A model generated the notes under the pieces. The model was not told where the DNA came from and made no database searches. It saw nothing but the letters and a program-made list of their open reading frames with translations. A program made the translations under genes and the position numbers. A stretch of DNA of 64,000 nucleotides from an uncultured Lachnospiraceae bacterium (GTDB taxonomy: Bacteria > Bacillota > Clostridia > Lachnospirales > Lachnospiraceae): assembly GCA_902794825.1 (NCBI GenBank), contig CADBIU010000008.1, forward strand, positions 50,622 to 114,621. The letters run 5' to 3'. How positions within the stretch are numbered: the stretch's first letter is position 1; every line of letters begins with the position of its first letter. Positions 1 through 14,415 of this stretch are shown one piece after another.

Positions 1-1425
1 CCGGACACTGATCCAGACCGCTACGCGGTCAAGAACAAGAATCAGTATGAACTGATGGCCGACGCTCTTTTGAAAGGGCAGATCTATCTCGAGTACGGCG
101 ACATGGACCGCCGCCTCCTTCAGATGCCCAATCCTTACGATACAAATGCAAGGAGAGCGTTGGGAGTAAGGTATCACTGGGACCATGCTTTCTATAAAGG
201 GCGCTACTATATGTATTTTGGCGTAGTGCCGGTCTTTCTGCTGTTCATACCGTTCAAACTGATCACCGGGGCGAGCCTGACGACATATCACGCGACCCAG
301 GTCTTTGTCGGCATGTCCATAATCGGGCTGTTCCTGTTCTTCAGATTATTGTCAAAGCGGTTCTTCCCGAAGCTGTCCTTTGCCGTCTACCTGTTCCTGG
401 GCGCGGCCGTGTCGGTAACGAGCATGGTGCACTGCGTCGCCAAACCGGCCATGTATATGACGGCCTTCTCGTCGGCTTTCTGCATGGAGATCTGGAGCGT
501 CTACTTCTATGTCAAAGCAGTGTGGGCCACCGATAACGAACACGAGAACCGGGCCATTTTCAGGGCTTTCCTCGGCGCGCTCTTCGGCGCGCTCGCGTTC
601 GGGTGCCGCCCGTCCATTGCACTCGGAAATCTGATCGTAATACCGTGCCTGATCGTCTTTTTGCGGGAGCACAAATTCACCTGGAAACTGTTTCTGAAAC
701 TGGTGGCAGCGGCCTCACCTTACATCATCATCGGCGCGCTGCTCATGCTCTACAACTATGTCCGGTTTGAGAATCCCTTCGAATTCGGCCAGAGCTACCA
801 GCTGACCGTTGCCGACCAGACAGCCTACGGAAGCCTGCTCTCCAGACTGAGCGTCCGCGGCCTCCTGAACGGAGCGACATATTTCCTGACCCGCTCCGAG
901 GACCTGATCGCAGACTTCCCCCACATCGTGGAGGGAGGCGTGTTCTACACCTACCCGGTGTTCGGCGTGGGGCTTTTCGCTCTCACAAACAAGAAGACAT
1001 GTTCCGCGATCCGGGCCAACAAAGTTGTCCTCTTCCTGCTGGGAGGGATCGTTACGATCGGTGTAATCATTATGATGGATATTGTCTGGACACCGTATTT
1101 GCTGGCAAGGTACAGGGAAGATATGATGTGGCTTCTGGGTATGCTTGTGTTCCTTGCGGTGGGGATGCGGTATGCGGAGATTTCCGGAGAGGAGCTTGCT
1201 GTTTCTGAGGTGGAAGAAGGGACTTCTGTGGCGGAATCTGGTGTGAAATTTGTTGTGGAACCCTGTGAGGAAGCTAAAGAATTCAGCTCGGCGGTCTGCC
1301 TGCTTTCTATCTATTCGATGCTGGTCTGCGCGTTTGTGTTCGTGCAGCTTGATATGAAGCATTTCCTGCCGGAACAGATTGAACTTATTAAAAAGATTGT
1401 GGGCGCGATGACATTCGGGCTGTGA
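1..1425 (+). CDS. Polytopic membrane protein, 5' end outside window
   Basis: The reading frame is open from the first base, so the true start lies upstream; an in-frame ATG at 55 is internal. The protein has about ten hydrophobic segments. They are preceded by a polar stretch rich in Tyr and Arg that includes a YHWDHAFYKGRYYMYFG motif. After the last long membrane block comes an acidic, soluble-looking stretch and one more hydrophobic segment before the stop. The overall look is that of the large hypothetical membrane proteins (possibly GT-C-like glycosyltransferases) found beside polysaccharide loci of Clostridia. I see no catalytic signature that fixes a function. A rho-independent terminator follows the stop, so it ends a transcription unit. 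The call as a membrane protein is firm; any enzymatic role is a guess. Confidence 0.75.
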   Translation, partial: PDTDPDRYAVKNKNQYELMADALLKGQIYLEYGDMDRRLLQMPNPYDTNARRALGVRYHWDHAFYKGRYYMYFGVVPVFLLFIPFKLITGASLTTYHATQVFVGMSIIGLFLFFRLLSKRFFPKLSFAVYLFLGAAVSVTSMVHCVAKPAMYMTAFSSAFCMEIWSVYFYVKAVWATDNEHENRAIFRAFLGALFGALAFGCRPSIALGNLIVIPCLIVFLREHKFTWKLFLKLVAAASPYIIIGALLMLYNYVRFENPFEFGQSYQLTVADQTAYGSLLSRLSVRGLLNGATYFLTRSEDLIADFPHIVEGGVFYTYPVFGVGLFALTNKKTCSAIRANKVVLFLLGGIVTIGVIIMMDIVWTPYLLARYREDMMWLLGMLVFLAVGMRYAEISGEELAVSEVEEGTSVAESGVKFVVEPCEEAKEFSSAVCLLSIYSMLVCAFVFVQLDMKHFLPEQIELIKKIVGAMTFGL

Positions 1426-1492
1426 AAAAAGGACTGCCGCAAAGGCCGCAATGTCATTAAGATAAGAATTTAGAGGTCGAAAAGAACAGAAT

Positions 1493-1530
1493 CGGGTCTC
1501 CACAAAAAAGTGGGGACCCGTTTTGTTTTG
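1493..1530 (+). terminator. Rho-independent terminator
   Basis: An 11-bp stem (1493-1503 pairing with 1510-1520, one G-U pair), an A6 loop and a following TTTTGTTTTG run. It separates the membrane-protein gene from the restriction-modification locus. Confidence 0.85.
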
Positions 1531-1597
1531 TAACAATTCAGGCATAAATCTTCATATGGTTTTGCTCTCGCTGCCTATATTTGTGTTAATATAGTTC

Positions 1598-3127
1598 ATG
1601 TCGACGGACAAAGTATTGAAAGGTTTACAACAGATGCTGAACGAGATATTAACCAAGACAAGCGAATTTCTTAAGTCTATGCCAAAGAGCAAACGTAAGA
1701 AGAAAGGTCAGTTCTTCACGTCGAAAGAGACTGCCGTTTTCATGGCGTCACTGTTTGATACGGAAAGATTTGGAAACGAGATAACAGTCCTTGACCCCGG
1801 AAGCGGGACAGGAGTGCTTTCTGCCGCCTTCATTGAGCGCATGGGAAAGGAAAGCATAGTCGATAAGATAAACCTGTACTGCTATGAGACAGACGAGGAA
1901 GTCCTCCCCGTTCTTAAAGAAAACCTTAAATTCATGAAAGAAGCCTCCCCCATCAATCTCGAATATCATGTCATGGAGGAAGACTATCTTCTGTCCCAGT
2001 ACCACGACTTCAACCATGACCTCCTCGCAGAAGAATACCCCCGCAAATATGACGCCGTTATCGGAAATCCTCCCTATCTCCGCGTCATGAGAGATAATCC
2101 TGCGGCGATGGCAATGCCAGAGATAGTCCACGGTGCCCCGAATATGTATTTTATGTTCGCAGCCATGTCCCTGTTTAACTTAAAAGACGATGCGGAGATG
2201 GTCTACATTATCCCGCGCAGCTGGACTTCCGGCGTTTACTTCAAAGCATTCAGGGATTATTTTCTGCACTATGGGAAACTGGAACATATCCACTTGTTTG
2301 TAAGCAGGGACAAGGTGTTCAGCCAGGAGCAGGTGCTGCAGGAGACTATTATTATAAAGGTCAAGAAAACACAGGTTATCCCGGAAATCGTAAGGCTGAC
2401 TTCAAGCCAGTCAAACGGCGATTTCAACGCCATAACGGAACTTTCCCTTCCATACAGCGCATTGGTAGTCGGTGATGAAAAGTACGTGTTCCTTCCAACT
2501 AGCGAAGAAGAGGTATCCGTTATCCAGAAGTTAAATCAGTATGACAATACCCTGCCGGATATAGGGCTTCGCATGAAGACCGGTATCATCGTAGATTTTC
2601 GACAGTATGATGACCTACGGGCAGAACCGGGTGAAAACATTGTCCCCCTGTTCTACAGTCAGCATATCCGCAACGGGCGCGTGAATCACAATCCATCCGG
2701 CAAAGACTTCGATTGGGTTATAACAGACAAGCCCGGGCTTATACAGAAGAACAAAAACTACCTCTTCTGTAAGCGTTTTACAGCGAAGGAAGAAAGACGT
2801 CGGCTTCAGTGCGGAATTTACCTTGCAAAAGACTTCCCTGATTATAAGAGCATAGGAACACAGAACAAGATTAACTTTGTCGACCATATAGACGGGCATG
2901 AACTCTCGGAATGTGAAGTGTATGGCATTTATGTCCTTCTGAACTCTACCTGGTTCGATATTTACTATCGTATCCTGAACGGCAGCACCCAGGTAAACAG
3001 TACGGAAGTGAACAACATGCCCGTTCCGCCTCTTTCTACTATACAGGATATGGGGCGGCGGCTTATCAAGACAGACAGCCTGACAACCGAGACCTGTGAC
3101 AGAATAATGGAGGCAGTTTATGAGTAA
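1598..3127 (+). CDS. Type II N6-adenine DNA methyltransferase, PstI/BsuBI-like
   Basis: A predicted m6A methyltransferase protecting the site of the nuclease encoded just downstream. The SAM-binding motif I is visible as LDPGSGTGVLSAAF (about residues 65-78), and the catalytic motif IV as GNPPY (about 155). The N terminus carries KGQFFTSKETAVFMASLFD, typical of the gamma-class PstI/BsuBI/Eco57I group. Length (509 aa) matches M.PstI and M.BsuBI (about 500 aa). The partner at 3120 is a PstI/BsuBI-family nuclease, so CTGCAG is the expected target by family analogy; this is inference. There is no clear ribosome site before ATG 1598. An in-frame ATG at 1634 follows AAAGGT and is an alternative start. 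The stop overlaps the nuclease start by 8 bases, indicating translational coupling. Confidence 0.9.
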   Translation: MSTDKVLKGLQQMLNEILTKTSEFLKSMPKSKRKKKGQFFTSKETAVFMASLFDTERFGNEITVLDPGSGTGVLSAAFIERMGKESIVDKINLYCYETDEEVLPVLKENLKFMKEASPINLEYHVMEEDYLLSQYHDFNHDLLAEEYPRKYDAVIGNPPYLRVMRDNPAAMAMPEIVHGAPNMYFMFAAMSLFNLKDDAEMVYIIPRSWTSGVYFKAFRDYFLHYGKLEHIHLFVSRDKVFSQEQVLQETIIIKVKKTQVIPEIVRLTSSQSNGDFNAITELSLPYSALVVGDEKYVFLPTSEEEVSVIQKLNQYDNTLPDIGLRMKTGIIVDFRQYDDLRAEPGENIVPLFYSQHIRNGRVNHNPSGKDFDWVITDKPGLIQKNKNYLFCKRFTAKEERRRLQCGIYLAKDFPDYKSIGTQNKINFVDHIDGHELSECEVYGIYVLLNSTWFDIYYRILNGSTQVNSTEVNNMPVPPLSTIQDMGRRLIKTDSLTTETCDRIMEAVYE

Positions 3128-4046
3128 GATTGATGAGGCAAAAATGTTCCTTGCAGATGTCGGCATGCCCATACAGCAGCAGACGGATATAGCGGCGCTC
3201 ACGCTGCTCACTCTCGCGCATGTTGCGCCGGATGACTCATGGAAAGACGCCAGTAATGAGTGGATTCGCATCCATGATGTTATACAGTTTGCGGAGAATA
3301 TTTACGGGCGGCACTATGCCGAAAATACGAGAGAGACTATCCGCAAGAACTGTATGCACCAGTTTCGTCTGGCGGCACTCATAGAAGACAATGGGAAAGC
3401 GACAAACAGTCCGAACTATCGCTACCGCATAACAGATGAGGCGCTTTCGCTTGTAAGAGCAATACCTGTGGACAGATATAGAGATGAACTTGCCCGTTTC
3501 AAAATGTACCACGATTCCCTTATCGAGATGTACAGGAGTAAAAAGACCATGGAAAAGATGCCTGTCCGCATCAACGGACAGGACCTTCATTTCAGTCCCG
3601 GGAAACACAACAAACTCCAGAAGGCTATCATTGAGGAATTCGCGCCTCGTTTTGCGCCGCACAGTGAATGCCTGTATGTTGGCGACACCACCAACAAAGA
3701 TATGGTAAAGAACGTGGAGAAACTGTCTGAACTAGGCTTTGAGATTACTCTTCACGACAAAATGCCTGATGTTGTCCTTTACATGCCGGACAAGAACTGG
3801 ATATATTTCATTGAAGCTGTGACCAGCGTAGGTCCTGTCAGCCCAAAGAGGATAATGGAAATAGAAGAGATGACAGAGAATGTGACCGCCGGGAAGGTCT
3901 ACGTTACTGCATTTCCCGACATCGCTACTTACAAAAAATTCGCTGCGGAACTTGCCTGGGAGACAGAGGTATGGCTTTCAGAACTTCCGGACCATATGAT
4001 ACACTTGAACGGTGACAAATTTATTGGTCCAAGAGACCAATCATAA
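3120..4046 (+). CDS. Type II restriction endonuclease, PstI/BsuBI family
   Basis: The C-terminal half carries the family's hallmark blocks: SPGKHNKLQ, LYVGDT.NK, then PDVVLY...NWIYFIEAVTSVGPVS.KR. The conserved acidic and Lys residues there form the PD-(D/E)XK-like nuclease site. The N-terminal half (residues 1-110) looks like a helical DNA-recognition region. Length (308 aa) is near PstI (326) and BsuBI (316). It starts inside the end of the methylase gene, so both are made from one message. The predicted cut site is CTGCAG or close to it, from family knowledge only. Several CTGCAG sites occur in this window, consistent with a methylated host genome. Confidence 0.9.
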   Translation: MSKIDEAKMFLADVGMPIQQQTDIAALTLLTLAHVAPDDSWKDASNEWIRIHDVIQFAENIYGRHYAENTRETIRKNCMHQFRLAALIEDNGKATNSPNYRYRITDEALSLVRAIPVDRYRDELARFKMYHDSLIEMYRSKKTMEKMPVRINGQDLHFSPGKHNKLQKAIIEEFAPRFAPHSECLYVGDTTNKDMVKNVEKLSELGFEITLHDKMPDVVLYMPDKNWIYFIEAVTSVGPVSPKRIMEIEEMTENVTAGKVYVTAFPDIATYKKFAAELAWETEVWLSELPDHMIHLNGDKFIGPRDQS

Positions 4047-4051
4047 CAAAC

Positions 4052-4084
4052 AAGACCGGAGCAGCCATAAGCCGCTCCGGTCTT
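4052..4084. terminator. Bidirectional terminator between convergent R-M loci
   Basis: A perfect 11-bp inverted repeat (4052-4062 and 4074-4084). T-rich sequence follows on both strands, most clearly on the minus strand (TTGTTTG). It ends both the PstI-like operon and the oppositely directed methylase/DUF262 operon. Confidence 0.75.
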
Positions 4085-4090
4085 CAATAT

Positions 4091-5359
4091 TTACCAGATA
4101 TTACCCTTCTGATTATTGTGGAAGCTGCAGAGCATCTGGCAATTCTCCTCTATGGTCTTTCCGCCCTTGCTCCACGGCTTAACATGGTCTGCCTGCATCT
4201 CTTTGAAAGCATACTCTTTGTTATTCCCGTCTTTAACGCAGAACGGACATTTATGCTTCTGCTTCTCGTATACAATCCTTGCTATCTTTTCTTCAAACTG
4301 TCTGAGCTGAAGATACCTTTCATCTCCATAGATGATGTACATGACAATGCCCTTCATCTTTGCGGTAATTTCATCATCGCTCATGAGATTGATGATATCT
4401 TTATTGATTTCATCTGCACTCTTGTGAATGATATTGTTATCGAAAGCACCTTTTGTGTAATCTTCGTAAACAGCACCCCAGTCAAGACCTTTCATGGTTT
4501 TATTGTATGTGGTGAACTTACTCCTGACCCATTCAAGCACACAAGAAAAATACTGCCAGAGAGCCGATGCGTCATTATCCTTACAATGCTTCAGCATATA
4601 TTCTTCAATGGCATTCTTTCCCGTAAATCCTTCGTGCCTTGCAGCCCAAAGAAGTGCGGTCTCAAGGTATTCCTGCCTGTTCCATGAACCGTTAAGAAGC
4701 GGCTCACTTGCGCCGTTATTCGGGTTAGTGTCTGCGAGAATGACCCCTCTGCCGTTTTTTGAAGAAAACCGTGCTTTTGCGTCAGAAAGCCATTTCCCCG
4801 TATAAGAAGAATTTCTGAGTTCCTGCTCATTTAATGGTTCGCCGCACGTGTTTATGCGGTGGAACCATTTGAGTTTTTCAGACGGTGTTCCTTTACAGAC
4901 ATACACTTCCAGTTCGTAATCCATGATTTTATCAGATATGTCGTGCATGTTGAAGACAAGGTTCTGAAAGTCCTGCGGAAGGTCTGTCGGGAATACATCG
5001 GATGCGACAGCGAATTCACCGGAAATATATTTGCAGATGGACAGTATTCTCTGCTGCCCGTCGAGGACTTCGAAAGTGCCGTCTTCCTTATCAACGAAAT
5101 AGATGGTATTGAGCGGGCAGTCTTCTAAAACAGTTTCAATTACCGCATCTCTTTTCGGCTGCGAATATACTGAGTTTCGCTGATAAGATGGACGGATGTT
5201 CAATTTTCCATCAAATCCAAAAACTGAATCTGTCGTATATCCGTCGTCGGAGTCTTTCATATAACCCGAGGTCAGGTCGCGGATAGTAAACCCCTTTTCT
5301 GTGTCTATGACCTGTATTTGGCCTTCTTTGATAAGGTCTCTTATTCTTTTCACCTGCAT
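4091..5359 (-). CDS. DUF262 (GmrS-like) protein with C-terminal HNH nuclease
   Basis: The N-terminal DUF262/ParB-like domain shows RPSYQRNSVYSQPKRDAVIETVL (about residues 57-79) and the diagnostic DGQQR motif (about 99-103). In GmrSD, BrxU and SspE this fold binds and hydrolyses nucleotides. The C terminus has an HNH zinc nuclease: CPFC at about 371-374, ADH, a central Asn in EENC, and CSFHNNQKG. The middle (150-340) is helical and unrecognised. GmrSD-type homologues are anti-phage nucleases, often modification-dependent. Here the gene is the last of an operon behind an EcoRI-family adenine methylase, which suggests it is the restriction half of an unusual R-M pair (inference). The AGGAG before ATG 5359 supports the start. 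Confidence 0.85.
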   Translation of the reverse strand: MQVKRIRDLIKEGQIQVIDTEKGFTIRDLTSGYMKDSDDGYTTDSVFGFDGKLNIRPSYQRNSVYSQPKRDAVIETVLEDCPLNTIYFVDKEDGTFEVLDGQQRILSICKYISGEFAVASDVFPTDLPQDFQNLVFNMHDISDKIMDYELEVYVCKGTPSEKLKWFHRINTCGEPLNEQELRNSSYTGKWLSDAKARFSSKNGRGVILADTNPNNGASEPLLNGSWNRQEYLETALLWAARHEGFTGKNAIEEYMLKHCKDNDASALWQYFSCVLEWVRSKFTTYNKTMKGLDWGAVYEDYTKGAFDNNIIHKSADEINKDIINLMSDDEITAKMKGIVMYIIYGDERYLQLRQFEEKIARIVYEKQKHKCPFCVKDGNNKEYAFKEMQADHVKPWSKGGKTIEENCQMLCSFHNNQKGNIW

Positions 5360-5361
5360 TG

Positions 5362-5463
5362 TTAATTCTCCTGTTTGTTTTTCTCTAAAAGTACAAGAAT
5401 CCAGACATTGCTAAAACGTTTTTCAAGTATGGACTCAACGTTAAGTAATTTACAGTTTTTCAT
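5362..5463 (-). CDS. Possible 33-aa small ORF between methylase and DUF262 gene
   Basis: Reading on the minus strand, an ATG at 5463 follows AAGGAAAACAGAC, a good ribosome site, and opens 33 codons ending TAA at 5362. The peptide starts MKNCKLLNVESILEKRF and ends in LLEKNKQEN. An in-frame ATG at 5484 would make it 40 aa. Its stop overlaps the spacer just before the DUF262 gene start (5359), so ribosomes could hand over directly. I recognise no family. It may be a coupling leader, a small regulator, or chance. Nothing else fills the 145-bp gap. Confidence 0.4.
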   Translation of the reverse strand: MKNCKLLNVESILEKRFSNVWILVLLEKNKQEN

Positions 5464-5504
5464 GTCTGTTTTCCTTGACTGCATATTTCGCGGAAGATGC
5501 ATTC

Positions 5505-6533
5505 TTAATACCCTATATCTTCCGATTTCTTGACAGGATGTAAATTTCGAATCAATATGCGTGGATAAATTGCTTTGTATATCTTTCCTTGCACAGAATA
5601 ATAGGGTTTGTCATGTAATGGCTTTGTAATTTCAACCACTGCGCCATCATTTGCTTTTGTTACACTTTGCGTGGTTCCGTTTGGATTATGCTGTATCTGT
5701 TTATCGAATATAAGCATTCTATACTCATTACCGATAGGCGTCTTTGTCATTGTCTGAATTTCAAATTCATCTGGATTATATTTGTCCTCGTTTCCCTCGT
5801 AATAACAATGTGCCTGCGTGTTATCGAATTTCCCGTTCCTGTGCCACAGTCCGTCATGACGGTATTTTACATCCATATTTGTAAACCAACGAATACCTGA
5901 AAGGTTGATATAATGTTTGCCGTCTTTGACAAACACATTTGAACTGTATTCTTCATAATCATCCGGTATACGGAAATCAATACCGCCTGAATGAATACTT
6001 GCGCCATACCAAATCATGTTTTCCTTGATTAAAGGAAATATATCCTGATAGGTTGCGGCGTTCTGATTCCCGAGGATGATGAACTTCTTTCCGTATTCGA
6101 TTAGTTGTGCGACGTACTCCCTGAAGAGCGAAAAAGGCGGATTAGTCGAAACGACCGTGGCCTCTTTTAGGAATCCGACACATGCATCACTGCGGAAGTC
6201 CCCGGCGTTGTATCCATCATTCCCCTTGATAGGGACCACTTCGCCCGCGCTCATGTTGAAGTCGTCCCCGCCTTCGTAAATCATAGCGTATGACGGCTCC
6301 GTGTCCTTCCTGTAGTGCGTGGCAATCAGTTTCTTCAGATTCAGTGAACCGAAGTTACTGTGAAAATACTTCCAGAAATTGCTCCACGCCGGGTCGTCGC
6401 AGTTGCAGTACACCACCTGTCCCTCAAACTGTTTGCGGTAGTGTCCCATTTCATCAGAGATTGTTCCGTACTCAGTGTAAAATTCATCATTCTTGACAGC
6501 TTTCGCCTGCTGCATCTTTTTGTTGTCTGCCAT
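5505..6533 (-). CDS. EcoRI-family N6-adenine DNA methyltransferase
   Basis: The protein carries the EcoRI-methylase (PF13651-type) pattern. It starts with NDEFYTEYGTISDEMGHYR and VVYCNCDDPAWSNFWKYF. The catalytic STNPPFSLFREYVAQLIEYGKKF block (motif IV NPPF, about residue 160) is followed by FIILGNQNA. M.EcoRI methylates the inner adenine of GAATTC; the target here is unproven. I place the start at ATG 6533, because AAGGGAAA lies 7 bases upstream. The longer form from 6548 adds only five residues and has no ribosome site. It is the first gene of an operon with the small ORF and the DUF262-HNH gene. No EcoRI-like nuclease is present, so the partner is probably the HNH protein. Confidence 0.88.
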   Translation of the reverse strand: MADNKKMQQAKAVKNDEFYTEYGTISDEMGHYRKQFEGQVVYCNCDDPAWSNFWKYFHSNFGSLNLKKLIATHYRKDTEPSYAMIYEGGDDFNMSAGEVVPIKGNDGYNAGDFRSDACVGFLKEATVVSTNPPFSLFREYVAQLIEYGKKFIILGNQNAATYQDIFPLIKENMIWYGASIHSGGIDFRIPDDYEEYSSNVFVKDGKHYINLSGIRWFTNMDVKYRHDGLWHRNGKFDNTQAHCYYEGNEDKYNPDEFEIQTMTKTPIGNEYRMLIFDKQIQHNPNGTTQSVTKANDGAVVEITKPLHDKPYYSVQGKIYKAIYPRILIRNLHPVKKSEDIGY

Positions 6534-6812: not shown

Positions 6813-7020
6813 ATGCTCGTGAACATTATACTTTATCTTATTCAACTGTGCCACCAGCTTTATCAGCAAAACTGCTGGCTGATCAACTTTATCTGCAGAT
6901 ATATCCCACTCAAGCAGTGGGCCTTCGACGATTCCCATTCCCCCAAGTATCAGAAGTTCAAGGTCGATCAGCTGCCGAAGATTGTCTACCATCATCAGGA
7001 CTGGGACACAGCGTCGATCA
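6813..7020 (+). pseudogene. Out-of-frame N-terminal part of the IS transposase
   Basis: From ATG 6813 this frame encodes MLVNIILYLIQLCHQLYQQ, then a FDDSHSPKYQKFKVDQLPKIVYHHQDWD segment. The segment reads like the start of this transposase family and stops making sense at about 7010. The zinc-ribbon part (CDIPEDCSCP) continues in the next frame. The two halves overlap in different frames, so a small indel or a programmed shift lies between about 6990 and 7030. Confidence 0.6.
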
Positions 7021-8211
7021 GAATGCGATATTCCGGAAGATTGCTCCTGCCCTGCCTGCAAGGCCCCCCAGCCTTACCTGTATCGCAACAATGGTAAAGC
7101 CGGACAGCTGCTGTGTAAGGTCTGCGGAACACGCTTCTCACCAGATGAGAGCCGTTTCTCCAAGGCGCTTTCGCTCAAGTGTCCTTACTGTTCCCATACG
7201 CTGACCCGTAAGAAAGACCGGAAGCATTTCATCGTCCATAAATGCGTGAATCCCAAGTGCTCTTACTATCTCCACAACCTCAAGAAGGTTGACAAGGCAG
7301 ATCTGGATGAGGACTACGGCAAAAACAAATATAAGCTGCATTACATCTACCGTGAATTCACGATAGATTTCTTCAAGATGGATATCACCACCCTGCCGAA
7401 GAATGCATCTTCGCTGAAATTCACTAAAAACAGCGCTTACATCATGTCCCTGTGCCTCTCCTACCGGGTCAATCTCGGTCTGTCCCTCCGAAAACCCGCA
7501 CAGGCCATGAAAGACATCCATGGCATCTCCATATCCCACCAGATGGTCGCCAACTACTGTAAAACCGCCGCCGTCTGTATCAAACCGTTTGTTGACACAT
7601 ATCCTTACGAAAAAGGATCTACCTTTGCTGCTGATGAGACTTACATCAAAGTCCGCGGCGTCAAAGGCTATATCTGGCTGATCATCAATGCTGCTACCCG
7701 GGCTGTGATCGGCTATCAGGTGGCTGATAACCGTGGTGTCGGCCCCTGCATTATGGCGATGCGCATGGCCTTCCAGCATCTGAAAGAGCTGCCTGAAGAC
7801 TTCCGCTTCATCGCTGACGGTTACAGTGCATATCCCCTTGCCGCCCAACAGTTCTTCCATGAATCCGGTGAAAAGTTTAAGTTCGAGATCACCCAGGTCA
7901 TCGGCCTTACGAACGATGATGCTGTTTCGAAAGAATTCAGACCGTATAAGCAGATGATCGAACGACTTAACCGTACCTACAAAGCTTCTTACCGCCCTAC
8001 AAACGGATTTGATAACTACGACGGTGCCAACTACGATCTTGCGCTCTGGGTCGCCTACTACAACTTCCTGCGGCCGCATAAACTGCATAAGTTCCAACCG
8101 CCGGTCAAAAACGACATCATCTCAAACGGCGAAAACATGCCTGGAAAATGGCAGCTGCTGATCTTTCTTGGCCAACAAACCATCAAAAAGATGCAGGAAA
8201 CTGCTGCATAA
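6982..8211 (+). CDS. DDE transposase, IS6/IS240-like, with zinc-ribbon N terminus
   Basis: The protein has two CxxC pairs near the start (CPACKAP...CKVCGTRF, then CPYCS...C.NPKC), forming a zinc ribbon. A DDE catalytic core follows: ADETYIKVRG (first Asp, about residue 215), FIADGYSAY (second Asp, about 275) and MIERLNRTYK (Glu, about 335). This order and spacing fit DDE_Tnp_IS240/IS6-like elements. The C terminus has a basic helix. The ATG at 6982 lies inside what looks like a frame-shifted original; the real N terminus is probably encoded from 6813. The element may therefore be inactive unless the shift is programmed. Family assignment within DDE transposases is moderate. Confidence 0.8.
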   Translation: MSTIIRTGTQRRSECDIPEDCSCPACKAPQPYLYRNNGKAGQLLCKVCGTRFSPDESRFSKALSLKCPYCSHTLTRKKDRKHFIVHKCVNPKCSYYLHNLKKVDKADLDEDYGKNKYKLHYIYREFTIDFFKMDITTLPKNASSLKFTKNSAYIMSLCLSYRVNLGLSLRKPAQAMKDIHGISISHQMVANYCKTAAVCIKPFVDTYPYEKGSTFAADETYIKVRGVKGYIWLIINAATRAVIGYQVADNRGVGPCIMAMRMAFQHLKELPEDFRFIADGYSAYPLAAQQFFHESGEKFKFEITQVIGLTNDDAVSKEFRPYKQMIERLNRTYKASYRPTNGFDNYDGANYDLALWVAYYNFLRPHKLHKFQPPVKNDIISNGENMPGKWQLLIFLGQQTIKKMQETAA

Positions 8212-8799: not shown

Positions 8800-9063
8800 A
8801 TGATCGATAAAGAATTGAGACGCATGAGCCGGCTCGAGCTGCTTGAGATCCTGATTGAGCAGATGGAGGAAAACGAGCGACTGCGGCAGGAATTAAATAA
8901 GGTACAGACGGAGCTGGAGCATATGCAGTTTGCGGTCAAGCGGGTGGGCACCCTGGCGGAGGCTGCCATGGAGATCAACGGGGTCTTTGAGGCGGCGGAC
9001 AAGGCGGCCAAAGAGTATCTGGAAAATGTGCGCCGTTTGGCAGAGACGGGGGGCGGCGAGTAA
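8800..9063 (+). CDS. Small coiled-coil protein at head of pilus operon
   Basis: An 87-aa protein from ATG 8800, which has AGGAGGCACCCG directly upstream; the longer frame from 8746 lacks a ribosome site. It begins MIDKELRRMSRLELLEILIEQ and is almost entirely heptad-like, with many Glu, Leu and Arg. There is no signal peptide or membrane segment. Similar small coiled-coil proteins sit before signal peptidase genes in Clostridial surface-protein loci; their job is unknown to me. The stop TAA overlaps the next ATG (TAATG), so it is coupled to the signal peptidase. Possibly a cytoplasmic scaffold for secretion of the adhesin. Confidence 0.7.
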   Translation: MIDKELRRMSRLELLEILIEQMEENERLRQELNKVQTELEHMQFAVKRVGTLAEAAMEINGVFEAADKAAKEYLENVRRLAETGGGE

Positions 9064-9653
9064 TGGCATCCGGACGACGTAATACCCATGACATTCCCGA
9101 TGTGGAGCAGCTGAGAGCGGAATTGAGCAGAGAGCAGTACAAGCAGAGATACAGGAGTGTGCTGCGCAGTACCATTTATACATTGGTAGTAGTTGCTGCC
9201 GTAGCGGTTTTGATCTCGGTTCTGTTCCTGCCTGTTTTGCAGATCTACGGCACCTCTATGACGCCTACCCTGAGCGAGGGGGATATCGTGGTCTCCGTTA
9301 AGGGAGCGGACTTTGAGAGCGGAGATCTGATTGCCTTCTATCTGGGCAACAAGATCCTGGTCAAGCGCTGCATCGCAGGGCCTGGCCAGTGGGTGGATAT
9401 CGACGAAGAGGGAAATGTATACATAGACGGCAAGCTGCTGGAGGAACCCTATCTGGAAGAGAAGGCCCTGGGCGACTGCAATATTGAGCTGCCCTATCAG
9501 GTGCCGGACAATCGTTACTTCTGTCTGGGGGACCACAGAGCTACGTCGGTAGACTCCAGAGACACAACGGTAGGCTGTGTGTCTGAGGAACAAATTGTGG
9601 GAAAGATTGTTTTTCGGATCTGGCCCCTGTCCGGACTTGGAACGCTGGAATAA
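9063..9653 (+). CDS. Type I signal peptidase of the pilus locus
   Basis: One N-terminal membrane anchor (about residues 38-60, TLVVVAAVAVLISVLFLPV) is followed by the catalytic Ser motif YGTSMTPTL (about 67). The Lys motif is ILVKRCIAGPG (about 101), and box E is GDHRATSVDSRD (about 157). Both dyad residues are present, so it should be active. It cuts signal peptides at the outer face of the membrane. Dedicated signal peptidases are common in sortase-pilus operons, where they are needed for pilin export or assembly. Start and stop of the flanking genes are tightly packed (1-base overlap upstream, 19 bases downstream). Confidence 0.92.
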   Translation: MASGRRNTHDIPDVEQLRAELSREQYKQRYRSVLRSTIYTLVVVAAVAVLISVLFLPVLQIYGTSMTPTLSEGDIVVSVKGADFESGDLIAFYLGNKILVKRCIAGPGQWVDIDEEGNVYIDGKLLEEPYLEEKALGDCNIELPYQVPDNRYFCLGDHRATSVDSRDTTVGCVSEEQIVGKIVFRIWPLSGLGTLE

Positions 9654-9672: not shown

Positions 9673-12600
9673 GTGAAACAAGATGCGTTGCAGCAGACAT
9701 CGAAATACGCGAAGGCGCACCAGCGCAAACGGCGTTGGTACAAGGCCGTCAGCTGTCTGGCGGCAGTGGTGGTGTTTTGCACGACCTATGCGTTGATTCT
9801 GCCTGCCATTACAATGGAACAGGACGCAAAGTGCGGCATCCCGGAGCACGTCCATGACGAGAGCTGCTACATAGTGGTCTCTGAGCCTCATGTCCACGAC
9901 GAGAGCTGCTACGAGCTGGTGGGAGGCCACGCCCACACCGACGACTGCTACACCCTCCAGCGGGGCGAGCTGATCTGCGGTCAGGAGGAGCGCGAGGATC
10001 ACCACCACACCGACGCTTGCTACACCGAGACCACCCGTGAGCTGACCTGCGGTCTGGAGGAGAGCGACGGCCACCAGCATACCGATGAGTGCTACGCCTG
10101 GGAGCAGGTGCTCACCTGCGGTCAGGAGGAGTCCGAGGGCCAGCTGGTTCTGACCTGCAATCTGGAAGAGGGCAAGGTTACCACCACGATCTCCGACACC
10201 CCCGTCTGCGGACTGGAGGAGCATACCCACACCCTTGCCTGCTGCTCCGACCCCGCCGCCGATGTGGAGACTGCGCAGATCTGGGAGCGCGCCATAAAGA
10301 ATGTGGAGCTGACCGGCGACTGGCGGGAGGACGTCATTGCCATTGCCAAGACTCAGCTGGACTATCAGGAGAGCGCAAAGAATTACATTGTGCTGGAGGA
10401 CGGCGAGACCATCAAGGGCTATACCCGCTACGGCGCATGGTACGGCGACCCCTACGGCGACTGGTGCGCCATGTTTGCCTCCTTCGTCCTGAACTACGCC
10501 GAGGTGGAGGGTATCCCGCTGGACGCCAACTGTCAGCATTGGATCGAGACCCTCTCCAAGGAGGAGAACGACCTCTACCGCCCGGCGGACGAGTACCTGC
10601 CTCAGCCCGGCGACCTGGTCTTCTTCGACTTTGACATTGAGGACGAGGCGCCCACTGCCGATCACGTGGGTCTGGTGGTGGAGATCATGAACGACGAGGA
10701 CGAGAACCCCATCAAGCTCAAGACCATCGAGGGCGACTCCTCTGATAAGGTGCAGTACGTCACCTATGAGCCGGACGATCCCGCCATCCTCGGCTACGGC
10801 CAGCTGCCTGAGCAGGAGCCGGAAGACGAGGAGCCGGCGGAGCAGTTCGTCCTGACCGCCGAGAGCGAGGACGGCATTGCCGTCACCGTCACCGGCGATC
10901 CGGAGTCCCTGCCCTATCCTGTTGAGAAGATCACCCTCTCTGTCAAGCCTGTCACCGACGAGGATGTCATTGCCCTCTGGAAGCAGACGGTGGAAGAGGC
11001 GGGCGAGAACGCCGAAGAGGCATTCCTGCTGGATATTGCCCTGCTCCACGACAGAGAGGAGATCGAGCCTGCCGGCCCCGTTCAGGTCACCTTTGAGGGC
11101 GTGGAGATGGGAGACAACGATGAACTCACCGTATTCCACGTTGACGCGGAGAACGAGGAAACCGAGGACATGAACGCCGTCGTGGACGAAGCGGGCACTG
11201 TGGTGCTGGATACCGACCACTTCTCTGTCTATGGCGGACTGGTGAGTGTGTCAGGGCAAACTCAGAAGATGCCTCAGCCCGGGGAATATATATATTTGGA
11301 TCTAAGTGCGCTTCATGGATACTATCCAGATGAGGGCTATACGCTTGGATTTTTTTACCATGATTCTCGTAACGGCGAACATAAAGTCAAAGATTATGAA
11401 AATGTGGCAGAGAATCTGTTCAAAATTAAACTTGCTCATGATGTTGATGTGAACAAGGGCATCAATTTTTATCGACAAAGAAGTGATACAGAATCTTGGA
11501 TACCGGGGGGCACGACTTTTCAAGCTGGAACAAATCTATATAAAATGACAAACTGGACAGAAGTTAATCAATGGACCGGTGAATGGGATGGCTCCTGGTA
11601 TGTTGAAAGTCTGGCCGGCCAGACCATGGCCTTTGAAAACAAGAGCGGCGCAGCTCTGTCTGGGGTCAAGGCACGCTTCTATTCCAGCACAAGCAACAGC
11701 CCCATTGCAACGGTTGACGTCGGAACGGGATCAATTGCGGACGGGGCATATGCAACCTTTCAGATTCCGGAGAACTACGGTTCTTATGTCCAGTTTGTGA
11801 CGCCAGACGACAACATCCTCGGCGATCAGTTCTCCTACTTCCTCGGCGAGGGCGTGGGCGAGAGCAACGTTGAGAGCTTCGTGTATAACAACACAACGAA
11901 GTACTGCTATAAGTACAAAAACAGTGCATCCGATTCCACATGGGGCGTCCCCGGTGACGGTGTTGAGATCCACACTGCGGAAGAGTTGGAGGCGTTCCTT
12001 ACGGGCGACGGTGTCGTTGGAATTCTGGCCGCCGACTTCGCCTGCAGCAACGCCATCACGGTAAATGGCGACAAGACCCTGAACCTGAATGGCAGAACGA
12101 TTACCTCCAGTGTGGAAAAGCTCTTTACCGTAGGTTCCGGCGCAACCCTGACGATCACTGATAATGTGGATGTTACGGACAGCAAGACTACTGACGGTGG
12201 AAATAAGTATGGCAGGCAAGGTTCTATGACCGATTATGCGTTAACATACTATGTGACGGAATCCACCGCAAGCGAAACCGCAACGATGGAAACGCTTTAT
12301 CAACATACGGTCAACTTTGGTAGCGCAGGTAAAATCGTCAGCAACAGCACTGGAGACAACGTCATTAACGTGACAGGCGGTACCCTGAATCTGGAGGGCG
12401 GCGTCATTTCCAGTAGCGGCAGTCACGCAGTTGTTCTTGATACGACTAATGGCGGCACCATGAATATGTCCGGCGGCCTGATCAAGGGCAAAAATGGTAC
12501 CGCTGACGGAGCTGGAATCTACATGGGCAGCGGCAACCTTAACATGAGCGGCGGCTACATTGCAGGCGGCGCAAGCAACAAGGGCGGCGGCATTTACATG

Positions 12601-14415
12601 AATTCCGGCACCATCAACCTTACTGATCATGCGGTAATTGCCGCAAATAACGCGACTTCAAATGGCGAAGGCGGCGGTATCTACGTGAATTCCGGCGTGC
12701 TGAACCTCCATGGCGGTACAGTTGCGAGCAACTGGGTCGATAGTGGGGTCGACAGGTTCGACAGCAATGGCGGCGGTATCTATGTGAAAAGCGGTACCAT
12801 CAGCATGACGGACGGCTACGTGACCAACAACAGCCAATACGGTGGTAGAAATGATGCGTATGGTCAAAACGGCGGCGGCGGCATTGCGTTTAATGAAGCG
12901 CAGATGTATATGTCCGGCGGCTATATCACCGGTAACTATGCGCAAGAAGCCGGCGGCGGCGTATATGCTGGTTTTTGGCATGCTAATGACGTTGGAGCCA
13001 GATTCGTTATGAGTGGCGGCACTGTTGCAAGCAACTATGCTCAAAATGGCGAGGGCGGCGGCATCCGAATCTCGGGCGGCACAGAGGGCGTTGTCTCCGG
13101 CCCCTCCGGCAGCACCGTATACATCACGAACAACACGACCATGACCGAGCAAGACTGGGGCGGCGGCGGCATCATGGTTCAGACGGAAGGCACATTTAAC
13201 ATCATGGATGTGCTGATCACCGATAACCATGCCCAGGGCTTTGGCGGCGGCGTGGCCTCCTGCCCCACCGGCGATGTCGATGCTGTTTCCGATAAGGGCG
13301 CTGCGATCTTTGGTAATAAGGCAGACTGTTCTGTGGTTCGTCCTGCGGAAGGCGTGAAGAACTATGACCGTGACTTCAAATGGAGCTATGAGACATACAG
13401 TGAAGCCAAACATTTTGACCCCGATACCGATGTTCAGGATTACTTCTGCACCAATCAGCGAGATGCCAACGAACTCATGTTGGGTGGAGGCAGGGAAAAC
13501 TGGACCGGTCCGGGCCGGAGTCCGGGAGTTAGGGACAATATGCCTTGGCAAATTGGGAATCCTGGTGATTATCATGATGTTATGGCCTTGACTGCGTATC
13601 CTACAGATGAACATAAGAATGCAGCAAAGGCTGCAGCCTCCGTCATTATCTCCGGCAACTTGTCCCACACCCATGGCGGCGGCATCACCACCAACGGTAC
13701 GCTTGACATGGGCAAGACCACAAGAACAGAGAAACGTACCTCCCTCACGATCATCGCAACCAAGCAGGTGATGAAAGCTGCCGGCGACGTGCAGACAACG
13801 GGTCTTCCTACGTTTGAATTCGTGTTGCTGAACAAGAAGCCGACCTGGAATCCGGCCACCAAGCAGTTTGATTATGCTGATACCGAGGTTCTCCAGACGA
13901 AGACGAATGATGGAAACGGCAAGATTGAATTTGGCGCGATTAACTATAATATCGCTGCATATTATACTTACTATCTGATCGAGAAGCCCACCACGACGGT
14001 TGAGGGCACCTACGAACAGGATCCGACGCTCTACACGATCGGCGTCATGGTAAAGAGCACCACGACAACCAGTGGTACCACAAAGACCACGACCTACACC
14101 ATTGAGAAGGTTGAGCTGAAACTGGAGCAGAATGGCGTATCCATCGGCTCGAAGGCCGGTAATCTGGTAGACCTTGGGAATAACGAAAAGTCCATCACCC
14201 TGACCGACCTCAACGATGAGACCACTTTCAACAACAAAGAAGTCGTCCCCTACTCCCTCCCCGAAACCGGCGGTCCCGGAACCTCTATGATCTATCTTCT
14301 TGGTATAGCGCTGATCGTGCTTGCCGGGGGTGGATATATACTCCGAAACAGAAGACTTCTCGTAACCAGGCCGGGTTCCGGTCATGGCAGAAAAGGAGGT
14401 GACCCTATGGGATGA
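9673..14415 (+). CDS. Giant LPETG surface adhesin with CHAP, beta-helix and pilin-type domains
   Basis: A 1580-aa wall-anchored protein from GTG 9673 (GAGGAGG upstream). Order: signal segment with TYALILPAITM (residues 25-50); Cys/His-rich repeats of the type H-x-H-[TD]-x-x-C-Y alternating with LxCG (52-200); CHAP amidase domain with GDWCAMFASF as catalytic Cys and ADHVGLVVEI as His (215-370); two beta-sandwich-like stretches (375-520); a long right-handed beta-helix with repeated GGGIY and MSGG units (about 800-1230); a Spy0128/FctA-like domain (about 1355-1520); the sorting signal LPETGG, a hydrophobic segment and Arg tail. It is likely a pilus tip or large adhesin that may also cleave peptidoglycan during assembly. 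Base composition changes abruptly near 11,280. The assignment as a sortase substrate is firm; ligand unknown. Confidence 0.9.
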   Translation: MKQDALQQTSKYAKAHQRKRRWYKAVSCLAAVVVFCTTYALILPAITMEQDAKCGIPEHVHDESCYIVVSEPHVHDESCYELVGGHAHTDDCYTLQRGELICGQEEREDHHHTDACYTETTRELTCGLEESDGHQHTDECYAWEQVLTCGQEESEGQLVLTCNLEEGKVTTTISDTPVCGLEEHTHTLACCSDPAADVETAQIWERAIKNVELTGDWREDVIAIAKTQLDYQESAKNYIVLEDGETIKGYTRYGAWYGDPYGDWCAMFASFVLNYAEVEGIPLDANCQHWIETLSKEENDLYRPADEYLPQPGDLVFFDFDIEDEAPTADHVGLVVEIMNDEDENPIKLKTIEGDSSDKVQYVTYEPDDPAILGYGQLPEQEPEDEEPAEQFVLTAESEDGIAVTVTGDPESLPYPVEKITLSVKPVTDEDVIALWKQTVEEAGENAEEAFLLDIALLHDREEIEPAGPVQVTFEGVEMGDNDELTVFHVDAENEETEDMNAVVDEAGTVVLDTDHFSVYGGLVSVSGQTQKMPQPGEYIYLDLSALHGYYPDEGYTLGFFYHDSRNGEHKVKDYENVAENLFKIKLAHDVDVNKGINFYRQRSDTESWIPGGTTFQAGTNLYKMTNWTEVNQWTGEWDGSWYVESLAGQTMAFENKSGAALSGVKARFYSSTSNSPIATVDVGTGSIADGAYATFQIPENYGSYVQFVTPDDNILGDQFSYFLGEGVGESNVESFVYNNTTKYCYKYKNSASDSTWGVPGDGVEIHTAEELEAFLTGDGVVGILAADFACSNAITVNGDKTLNLNGRTITSSVEKLFTVGSGATLTITDNVDVTDSKTTDGGNKYGRQGSMTDYALTYYVTESTASETATMETLYQHTVNFGSAGKIVSNSTGDNVINVTGGTLNLEGGVISSSGSHAVVLDTTNGGTMNMSGGLIKGKNGTADGAGIYMGSGNLNMSGGYIAGGASNKGGGIYMNSGTINLTDHAVIAANNATSNGEGGGIYVNSGVLNLHGGTVASNWVDSGVDRFDSNGGGIYVKSGTISMTDGYVTNNSQYGGRNDAYGQNGGGGIAFNEAQMYMSGGYITGNYAQEAGGGVYAGFWHANDVGARFVMSGGTVASNYAQNGEGGGIRISGGTEGVVSGPSGSTVYITNNTTMTEQDWGGGGIMVQTEGTFNIMDVLITDNHAQGFGGGVASCPTGDVDAVSDKGAAIFGNKADCSVVRPAEGVKNYDRDFKWSYETYSEAKHFDPDTDVQDYFCTNQRDANELMLGGGRENWTGPGRSPGVRDNMPWQIGNPGDYHDVMALTAYPTDEHKNAAKAAASVIISGNLSHTHGGGITTNGTLDMGKTTRTEKRTSLTIIATKQVMKAAGDVQTTGLPTFEFVLLNKKPTWNPATKQFDYADTEVLQTKTNDGNGKIEFGAINYNIAAYYTYYLIEKPTTTVEGTYEQDPTLYTIGVMVKSTTTTSGTTKTTTYTIEKVELKLEQNGVSIGSKAGNLVDLGNNEKSITLTDLNDETTFNNKEVVPYSLPETGGPGTSMIYLLGIALIVLAGGGYILRNRRLLVTRPGSGHGRKGGDPMG

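Follow-up and report, generated by a model that had tools for sequence, protein, structure and literature searches.

The DNA analyzed here (hereafter, the window) is a stretch of 64,000 nucleotides from an uncultured Lachnospiraceae bacterium (GenBank assembly GCA_902794825.1, contig CADBIU010000008.1, positions 50,622 to 114,621), and our subject is a pair of adjacent reverse-strand genes within it that encode an EcoRI-family adenine methylase (M) and a protein combining a DUF262 domain with an HNH nuclease (R). An original prediction, made from the sequence alone, had placed both genes at this locus; each was recovered where it had been put, with the DGQQR and HNH motifs and the cysteines retained in R and the NPPF motif present in M (Table 1), and an alternative ATG start of M at 6533 agrees with the coordinate given at the time. 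The PADLOC model PDLC03418 (REase_II) matches residues 20-420 of R (E 9e-99) and PDLC03297 (MTase_II) matches M (E 7e-77); given that these models cover both proteins over nearly their full length, the parts of the system are already catalogued in PADLOC. The accompanying claim that no EcoRI nuclease is encoded nearby was borne out, as a profile of six EcoRI-type restriction endonucleases (REases), run against all six frames of the whole window, returned no match at E<=1. The small open reading frame (ORF) described between the two genes does exist, but its candidacy as a third component was rejected: four family libraries gave no match to it, and neither of the two nearest relatives retains it, L049 carrying a different, longer ORF in the M-R gap and L050 leaving no room for one.

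Table 1. Features of the M-R locus and its neighbours in the window.
Feature	Position	Strand	Basis
R: DUF262 (ParB/Srx-like) + HNH nuclease, 422 aa	4091..5359	(-)	PF03235 GmrSD_N (DUF262) E 1.2e-19; PF01844 HNH E 1.9e-7
R HNH domain with CPFC, ADH, NCQMLC...N motifs, residues 371-418	4106..4249	(-)	PF01844 and motif reading
R DGQQR motif, residues 100-104	5048..5062	(-)	motif read in window sequence
ORF of 33 aa in the M-R gap; unlikely to be a component	5362..5463 (about)	(-)	no family match
M: EcoRI-family adenine methylase, 347 aa	5505..6548	(-)	PF13651 EcoRI_methylase E 7.4e-83
M V2 segment, residues 265-335, putative target-recognition cassette	5544..5756	(-)	39% to L123
M segment C, shortened in window copy, 44 residues	5757..5888	(-)	comparison with 157 methylases
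M V1 segment, residues 183-220, putative target-recognition cassette	5889..6002	(-)	nearest type ASIHSGDREFRVPDYYPL, 51% to L150
M NPPF catalytic motif, residues 136-139	6132..6143	(-)	motif read in window sequence
BsuBI/PstI-type methylase	1598-3127	(+)	
BsuBI/PstI-type nuclease	3120-4046	(+)	
Insertion sequence (IS)-like transposase ORF	6982-8211	(+)	DDE_Tnp_IS240 match
Presumed signal-peptidase-like ORF	9063-9653		motif
Presumed surface-type protein, 1580 aa, LPxTG-like C-terminus	9673-14415	(+)	motif

Counting methylase genes next to DUF262-HNH genes across genomes, which had been proposed together with the original prediction, shows the M-R pair to be a conserved feature of bacterial genomes from several phyla, and of plasmids and viral contigs as well. 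The loci compared were the best 80 of at least 573 R-led genome loci, the best 80 of 132 viral R loci, and the best 80 of 169 viral M loci; among the 172 R-led loci scored, 145 have a full M, 17 a partial M, and 10 none within limits (L133, with no usable R, was omitted). In 78 of the 80 genome loci M, or the part of it present on the contig, precedes R on the same strand (within 600 bp in 69 and up to 1.6 kb away in nine), the two exceptions being L053, where R starts at the contig end, and L073, which has no M in 4.5 kb upstream. Record titles assign these loci to Clostridia, Bacteroidales, Treponema, Vibrio, Massilia, Patescibacteria, Chloroflexi, Bifidobacterium, a Woesearchaeon, and others. 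Of the 80 viral R loci, 73 have M upstream, whole or in part; in four of the remaining seven M comes immediately downstream of R (three of these four share an identical pair), and in the last three R is at a contig edge. Among 398 genomes of the phylum, a strong R (E<1e-70) was found in seven, the window's own genome included, all of which are among the eight with PF13651 above cut-off (hypergeometric 2.7e-14); in the six others M stands directly upstream of R, and genome G159, whose R is in two pieces, has no PF13651 match. The pair is also found on a 7.5-kb Ligilactobacillus agilis plasmid, whose annotated genes are MerR, M, R, and rep, and in the genome of Flavobacterium phage laban6-1; a strain-level comparison in E. 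coli gave a match in one of 5426 genomes, covering 49% of the query.

Viewed from the methylase, the association is looser. Of the M-led viral loci, 51 have a DUF262-HNH R, three an EcoRI-type REase, and 24 neither (four of these carry a short R remnant), while two end too soon; taken together with the R-led counts, R is rarely without M, and M is often without R. In three of the viral contigs with M and no R (L239, L269, and L299), the methylase neighbours ORFs with many GDVS-type repeats. The idea of a constant third gene in the M-R gap was rejected, as the inserts differ among loci, which suggests cargo rather than a component. Unrelated ORFs occupy this position in L054, L062, L076, L079, L107, and L126, a predicted optrA gene does so in L129 (Enterococcus dispar plasmid, 61-4699), and in L080, L095, L096, and L120 the insert is an ORF (309 aa, 4000-4929) that we take, from a motif, to be Fic-like; it is near-identical in these four loci, while their M differs in V1 and V2.

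In the aligned methylases the N-terminal catalytic part and a segment C are conserved, and two further segments are hypervariable: V1, which lies between 'WLG' and 'WFTNLD' (mostly 34-41 residues), and V2, which follows 'QFEI' (33-75 residues). From the 145 loci with a full M, four were set aside as redundant (141 left) and two for short segments, and the 139 scored, with types defined at 50% identity, contain 34 V1 types and 64 V2 types in 110 combinations. In 29 locus pairs R is at least 90% identical, yet the V1 type is the same in only nine of them, the V2 type in three, and both in three. In the pair L095/L096, R differs at four scattered residues of 360, and V1 and V2 are 27% and 35% identical, respectively. 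At the DNA level, identity dips over both segments in L087/L101 and over V2 alone in L109/L111. Individual V1 and V2 types reappear in loci from different phyla, and two methylases with different V1 and V2 stand beside a single R in six of 145 loci. R is under purifying selection, with ratios of nonsynonymous to synonymous substitution (dN/dS) of 0.02-0.06 in the four pairs tested, in all of which both segments are of different type.

This pattern was also evaluated on a quick tree of R (143 loci, the two with short segments being omitted) by counting the fewest changes of type required and comparing them with 30 shuffles. The N-terminal part of M, with 35 types at 70% identity, requires 42 changes (minimum 34, shuffled mean 86), whereas V1 (34 types) requires 85 (minimum 33, shuffled 102) and V2 (64 types) requires 116 (minimum 63, shuffled 127). 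The catalytic part of M therefore largely follows the R tree, and V1 and V2 hardly do. A nearly constant R beside changing specificity-like segments of M is a departure from classical type II behaviour, and in this respect the proposal of a restriction-modification (R-M) type distinct from classical type II gains support.

Methylases linked to a true EcoRI nuclease behave differently. As a control we used six plasmid EcoRI-type systems (E. coli, two Klebsiella, Leuconostoc, Staphylococcus rostri, and Rhodococcus) with R 60-92% identical. V1 is kept at 62-95% in all 15 control pairs, and in none of them is it less conserved than the catalytic part; V2 is above 50% in 10 of 15, reaching 67-97% in the ten pairs without Rhodococcus. 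Two phage EcoRI systems (L273 and L291) have the same V1 and V2 motifs as the plasmid control. Among the DUF262-linked methylases, an EcoRI-type V1 occurs with another V2 in four (L045, L116, L195, and L205) and an EcoRI-type V2 with another V1 in four more (L063, L091, L101, and L119), and the EcoRI-type V1 and V2 occur together in none of 151. The constancy of the EcoRI-linked segments, set against exchange in the DUF262-linked ones, supports, without proving, the view that V1 and V2 set the DNA target. Use of the BsuBI/PstI-type system of the window as a type II control was abandoned in favour of this set, for it has too few relatives and is weak: scanning viral sequences with its PstI-like nuclease gave no match, and the 398 genomes hold four other relatives, of which three were compared (one with a partial nuclease, none near-identical), their methylase and nuclease identities falling without a cassette-like mosaic. 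Two further EcoRI-type loci were noted, namely a Rhodococcus plasmid (L306, 3001-6825) in which another DUF262 gene lies downstream of the EcoRI-type R-M pair, and an Acinetobacter plasmid (L307, 1917-3807) in which an EcoRI-type nuclease gene directly follows one annotated only as a DNA methyltransferase.

Repeat tracts, defined as G/C runs of at least nine or repeated units of 2-6 bases and sought in 160 R-led loci, number five in 157 kb of M, none in 176 kb of R, and four in 892 kb elsewhere (Fisher p 0.003). In three loci the reading frame of M is disrupted at a G tract with R intact (L057, G10; L078, G12; L136, G11), and L077 contains (CAGA)22 inside V2, in frame. An R that cut unmethylated sites unaided should harm cells with a broken M, which points indirectly to a likely dependence of R on M. 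In L248 (2893-2952), (CGGCA)12 lies just upstream of the methylase start and could be an expression switch.

The DGQQR motif is conserved in R of all 145 loci. A predicted model of R (L095, 70 sequences) has a predicted local distance difference test score (pLDDT) of 90.6 and a predicted template modelling score (pTM) of 0.72, and consists of ParB-like, helical, and HNH parts. Its fold matches are BrxU (7p9k, E 1.1e-4), CDP-bound ParB (6sdk, 2.5e-3), and an HNH protein (4h9d, 0.011), of which only BrxU passes E 0.001, with low whole-chain template modelling scores (TM-scores). By sequence, solved structures match R in the HNH part only, apart from weak chance-like matches, and do not match M at all. 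In our reading, R is a ParB-fold HNH nuclease that probably uses nucleoside triphosphate (NTP), as the DGQQR motif and the fold suggest, and that would have no specificity of its own.

We favour, at a probability of roughly 60%, the reading that the pair is an R-M system whose specificity resides solely in the EcoRI-family methylase, which directs a DUF262-HNH nuclease lacking target specificity. The conserved frame of M would carry V1 and V2, each reading part of the target, and M would supply the target for both modification and restriction, as in Type I and Type III logic. R would be directed by M, most likely by binding it at unmethylated sites to form an M-R complex; its ParB/Srx-fold DUF262 domain would then bind NTP and act as a switch or a sliding clamp from which HNH cleavage is released. 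Provided that the pair restricts DNA, which we infer, the whole would be a Type III-like logic built from unrelated parts. Were V1 and V2 each to read a part-site, most combinations would specify asymmetric targets methylated on one strand, and one-strand methylation would in turn call for a two-site logic that spares newly replicated DNA; Type III methylases methylate one strand, as a passage of PMC3983042 has it. A more detailed version, which we put forward tentatively, is that M, with two independently exchangeable part-site cassettes, is both the loader and the only specificity subunit, that a ParB-like, NTP-driven HNH nuclease is clamped onto DNA at sites that are unmethylated and for the most part asymmetric, cutting once it has slid or collided, and that classical EcoRI is the branch where a single cassette pair was fixed by a stand-alone nuclease.

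Several observations weigh against direction of R by an exchangeable M. The 29 pairs with near-identical R are not independent, as 14 come from a single six-locus group (L061, L080, L095, L096, L120, and L125) and 15 from 11 further groups, and although a segment has changed in 10 of these 12 groups, L071/L072 and L165/L206 retain both types. In L055/L064, and in L078 relative to L109 and L111, the N-terminal part also differs (47-52%), the whole of M having been replaced there. V1-V2 combinations recur above the shuffled level (29 vs 15), and V1 and V2 are not wholly detached from the R tree, requiring fewer changes than the shuffles; both are as descent would give. With 18 types at 65% identity, the N-terminal part requires 30 changes (minimum 17, shuffled 73) and so follows R well, not perfectly, while segment C at 75% (50 types, 49 changes, minimum 49, shuffled 64) is a weak test because its types are mostly small. 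In the control, V2 of Rhodococcus is 39-43% identical in its five pairs, below the 50% rule (its tail is longer, its core motif alike), and only two of 15 pairs have R at 90% or above, both of which keep V1 and V2. The repeat-tract test was devised after the tracts had been noticed and leaves out A/T runs; in L085, L121, L126, and L204 M is likewise split between frames next to R, with no G tract as long as nine; and, as most loci are metagenome assemblies, tracts and frameshifts may be assembly errors in any of them. There is no natural M-R fusion ORF among the 145 loci. Finally, the model of M (L101, pLDDT 86.3) has no PDB fold match at E<=0.001, and V1 and V2 consequently could not be placed on DNA.

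The main rival explanation is an SspE-like one, in which R would itself read the methyl mark (any N6-methyladenine, m6A, or hemi-methylation) through DUF262, be switched by nucleotide, and cut without further sequence specificity, with no recruitment by M. SspE is described as a DUF262-DUF1524 homologue tied to a DNA mark (a passage of PMC12707154), and the DUF262-HNH architecture, the BrxU-like fold, and the near absence of R without M agree with a mark reader, which would also explain a constant R under changing V1 and V2 and an out-of-frame M beside an intact R. The HNH domain here, however, is PF01844 and not DUF1524. Moreover, m6A from other methylases is common in bacteria and would confuse a context-free reader, and we consider this explanation unlikely.

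The PADLOC filing as type II would be correct if R recognised the site of M by itself, as EcoRI does. Such a system would account for the PADLOC models of both proteins and for the strong M-R linkage, with the frame of M largely following R, but it is difficult to reconcile with a near-identical R beside different V1 and V2, with segments that stay alike in EcoRI-linked relatives, with an intact R next to an out-of-frame M, and with the lack of a hypervariable block in R, where the lowest 20-column identity is 0.34 compared to 0.16 in M; of the explanations considered here, we find it the least credible. Scarcely more credible is the suggestion that V1 and V2 do not set the target, varying either neutrally or for some other reason (e.g. 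escape from phage inhibitors) while R and M share one conserved target. While the failure to place the M model on DNA leaves room for this, it is disfavoured by the EcoRI-linked pairs, in 15 of 15 of which V1 is at least as conserved as the catalytic part, and by the recurrence of V1 and V2 types across phyla.

The copy in the window may be a special case, whatever the family as a whole does. Its spacing between the WFTNLD-like and QFEI-like motifs of M is 34 residues, compared to 57-69 in the other 65 methylases parsed (82 aligned) and 69 in the two nearest relatives; segment C is 44 residues long, against a median of 67 over 157 methylases, with one other below 60 (L086). M is thus about 35 conserved residues short, and the window copy may be inactive. 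By R, the nearest relatives among the best 80 genome loci are L049 (87% identical, a Lachnospiraceae metagenome-assembled genome) and L050 (66%); relative to L049, V1 of the window is 40% and V2 21% identical. Whether the window holds a decaying remnant, in which M no longer methylates after the partial loss of a conserved segment, is in our view an even question: the shortened spacing and the IS-like transposase that adjoins the pair speak for decay, whereas M is open over 347 codons, R keeps its motifs, and the shortening, being seen in one assembly only, could be an assembly artefact. On its other side the pair is convergent with the BsuBI/PstI-type system, the two forming a two-system R-M patch. 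Farther along, the ORF that we take to be signal-peptidase-like lies 5' of the gene for the presumed surface-type protein.

Although the parts are catalogued, searches of an open-access library turned up no paper describing the M-R pair or its behaviour in its title or the abstract displayed, which does not prove that none exists. Re-targeting a type II system is generally considered difficult, since the nuclease and the methylase would have to change in step. The two-gene system described here is common, occurring in several phyla and also on small plasmids and in phages, and it appears to change its target by swapping one or two short stretches of M. If this is true, the pair would represent a specificity-sharing R-M class assembled from an EcoRI-type methylase and a ParB-fold nuclease, its segments would constitute a natural target-recognition library (34 V1 and 64 V2 types over 139 loci) that could be decoded by methylome sequencing, and it would hint at the relationship between flexible systems and frozen type II ones such as EcoRI; a plain type II annotation might then mislead.

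Among known systems, the pair shares with EcoRI R-M an M of PF13651 with the same frame and some common V1 and V2 types, and differs in its DUF262-HNH partner, in segments that are exchanged rather than alike, and in gene order, which is M then R here and R then M in the six EcoRI plasmid systems. The EcoRI-family endonuclease partner expected of a classical type II system was not found in the window, and specificities of R and M do not appear to evolve together: both segment types are kept in three of 29 pairs, against V1 in 15 of 15 and V2 in 10 of 15 control pairs at the 50% rule. The PADLOC type II label implies an independent specificity of R, and the exchange data speak against it. With the type IV systems GmrSD and BrxU the pair has in common a DUF262 domain with DGQQR joined to a His-Me-finger-type nuclease, BrxU 7p9k being the best PDB fold match, yet its HNH domain is PF01844 instead of DUF1524 and its R almost always has a methylase neighbour. 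SspE likewise couples DUF262 and an HNH-type nuclease to a DNA-marking system, in the portion of PMC12707154 that describes it, whereas the mark-maker here belongs to an adenine-methylase family; no phosphorothioation genes are among the annotated features of four regions, including the 7.5-kb plasmid (whose gene table is possibly incomplete), no systematic survey having been made. Neither HsdS nor HsdR is annotated beside the pair on the two plasmids examined, with no wider survey. Phase-variable tracts are known in Type III mod genes. In behaviour the pair resembles Type III Mod/Res systems and the exchange of HsdS target-recognition domains (TRDs) in Type I, where a near-constant nuclease also stands beside target-recognition segments that move between genes. 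The apparent location of specificity in the modification subunit, swapped under a constant nuclease, is the arrangement of Type III R-M, although R here has no helicase/ATPase motor (DUF262 and HNH are the only families above cut-off) and the parts are an EcoRI-family M with two variable segments and an R that joins a ParB fold to HNH.

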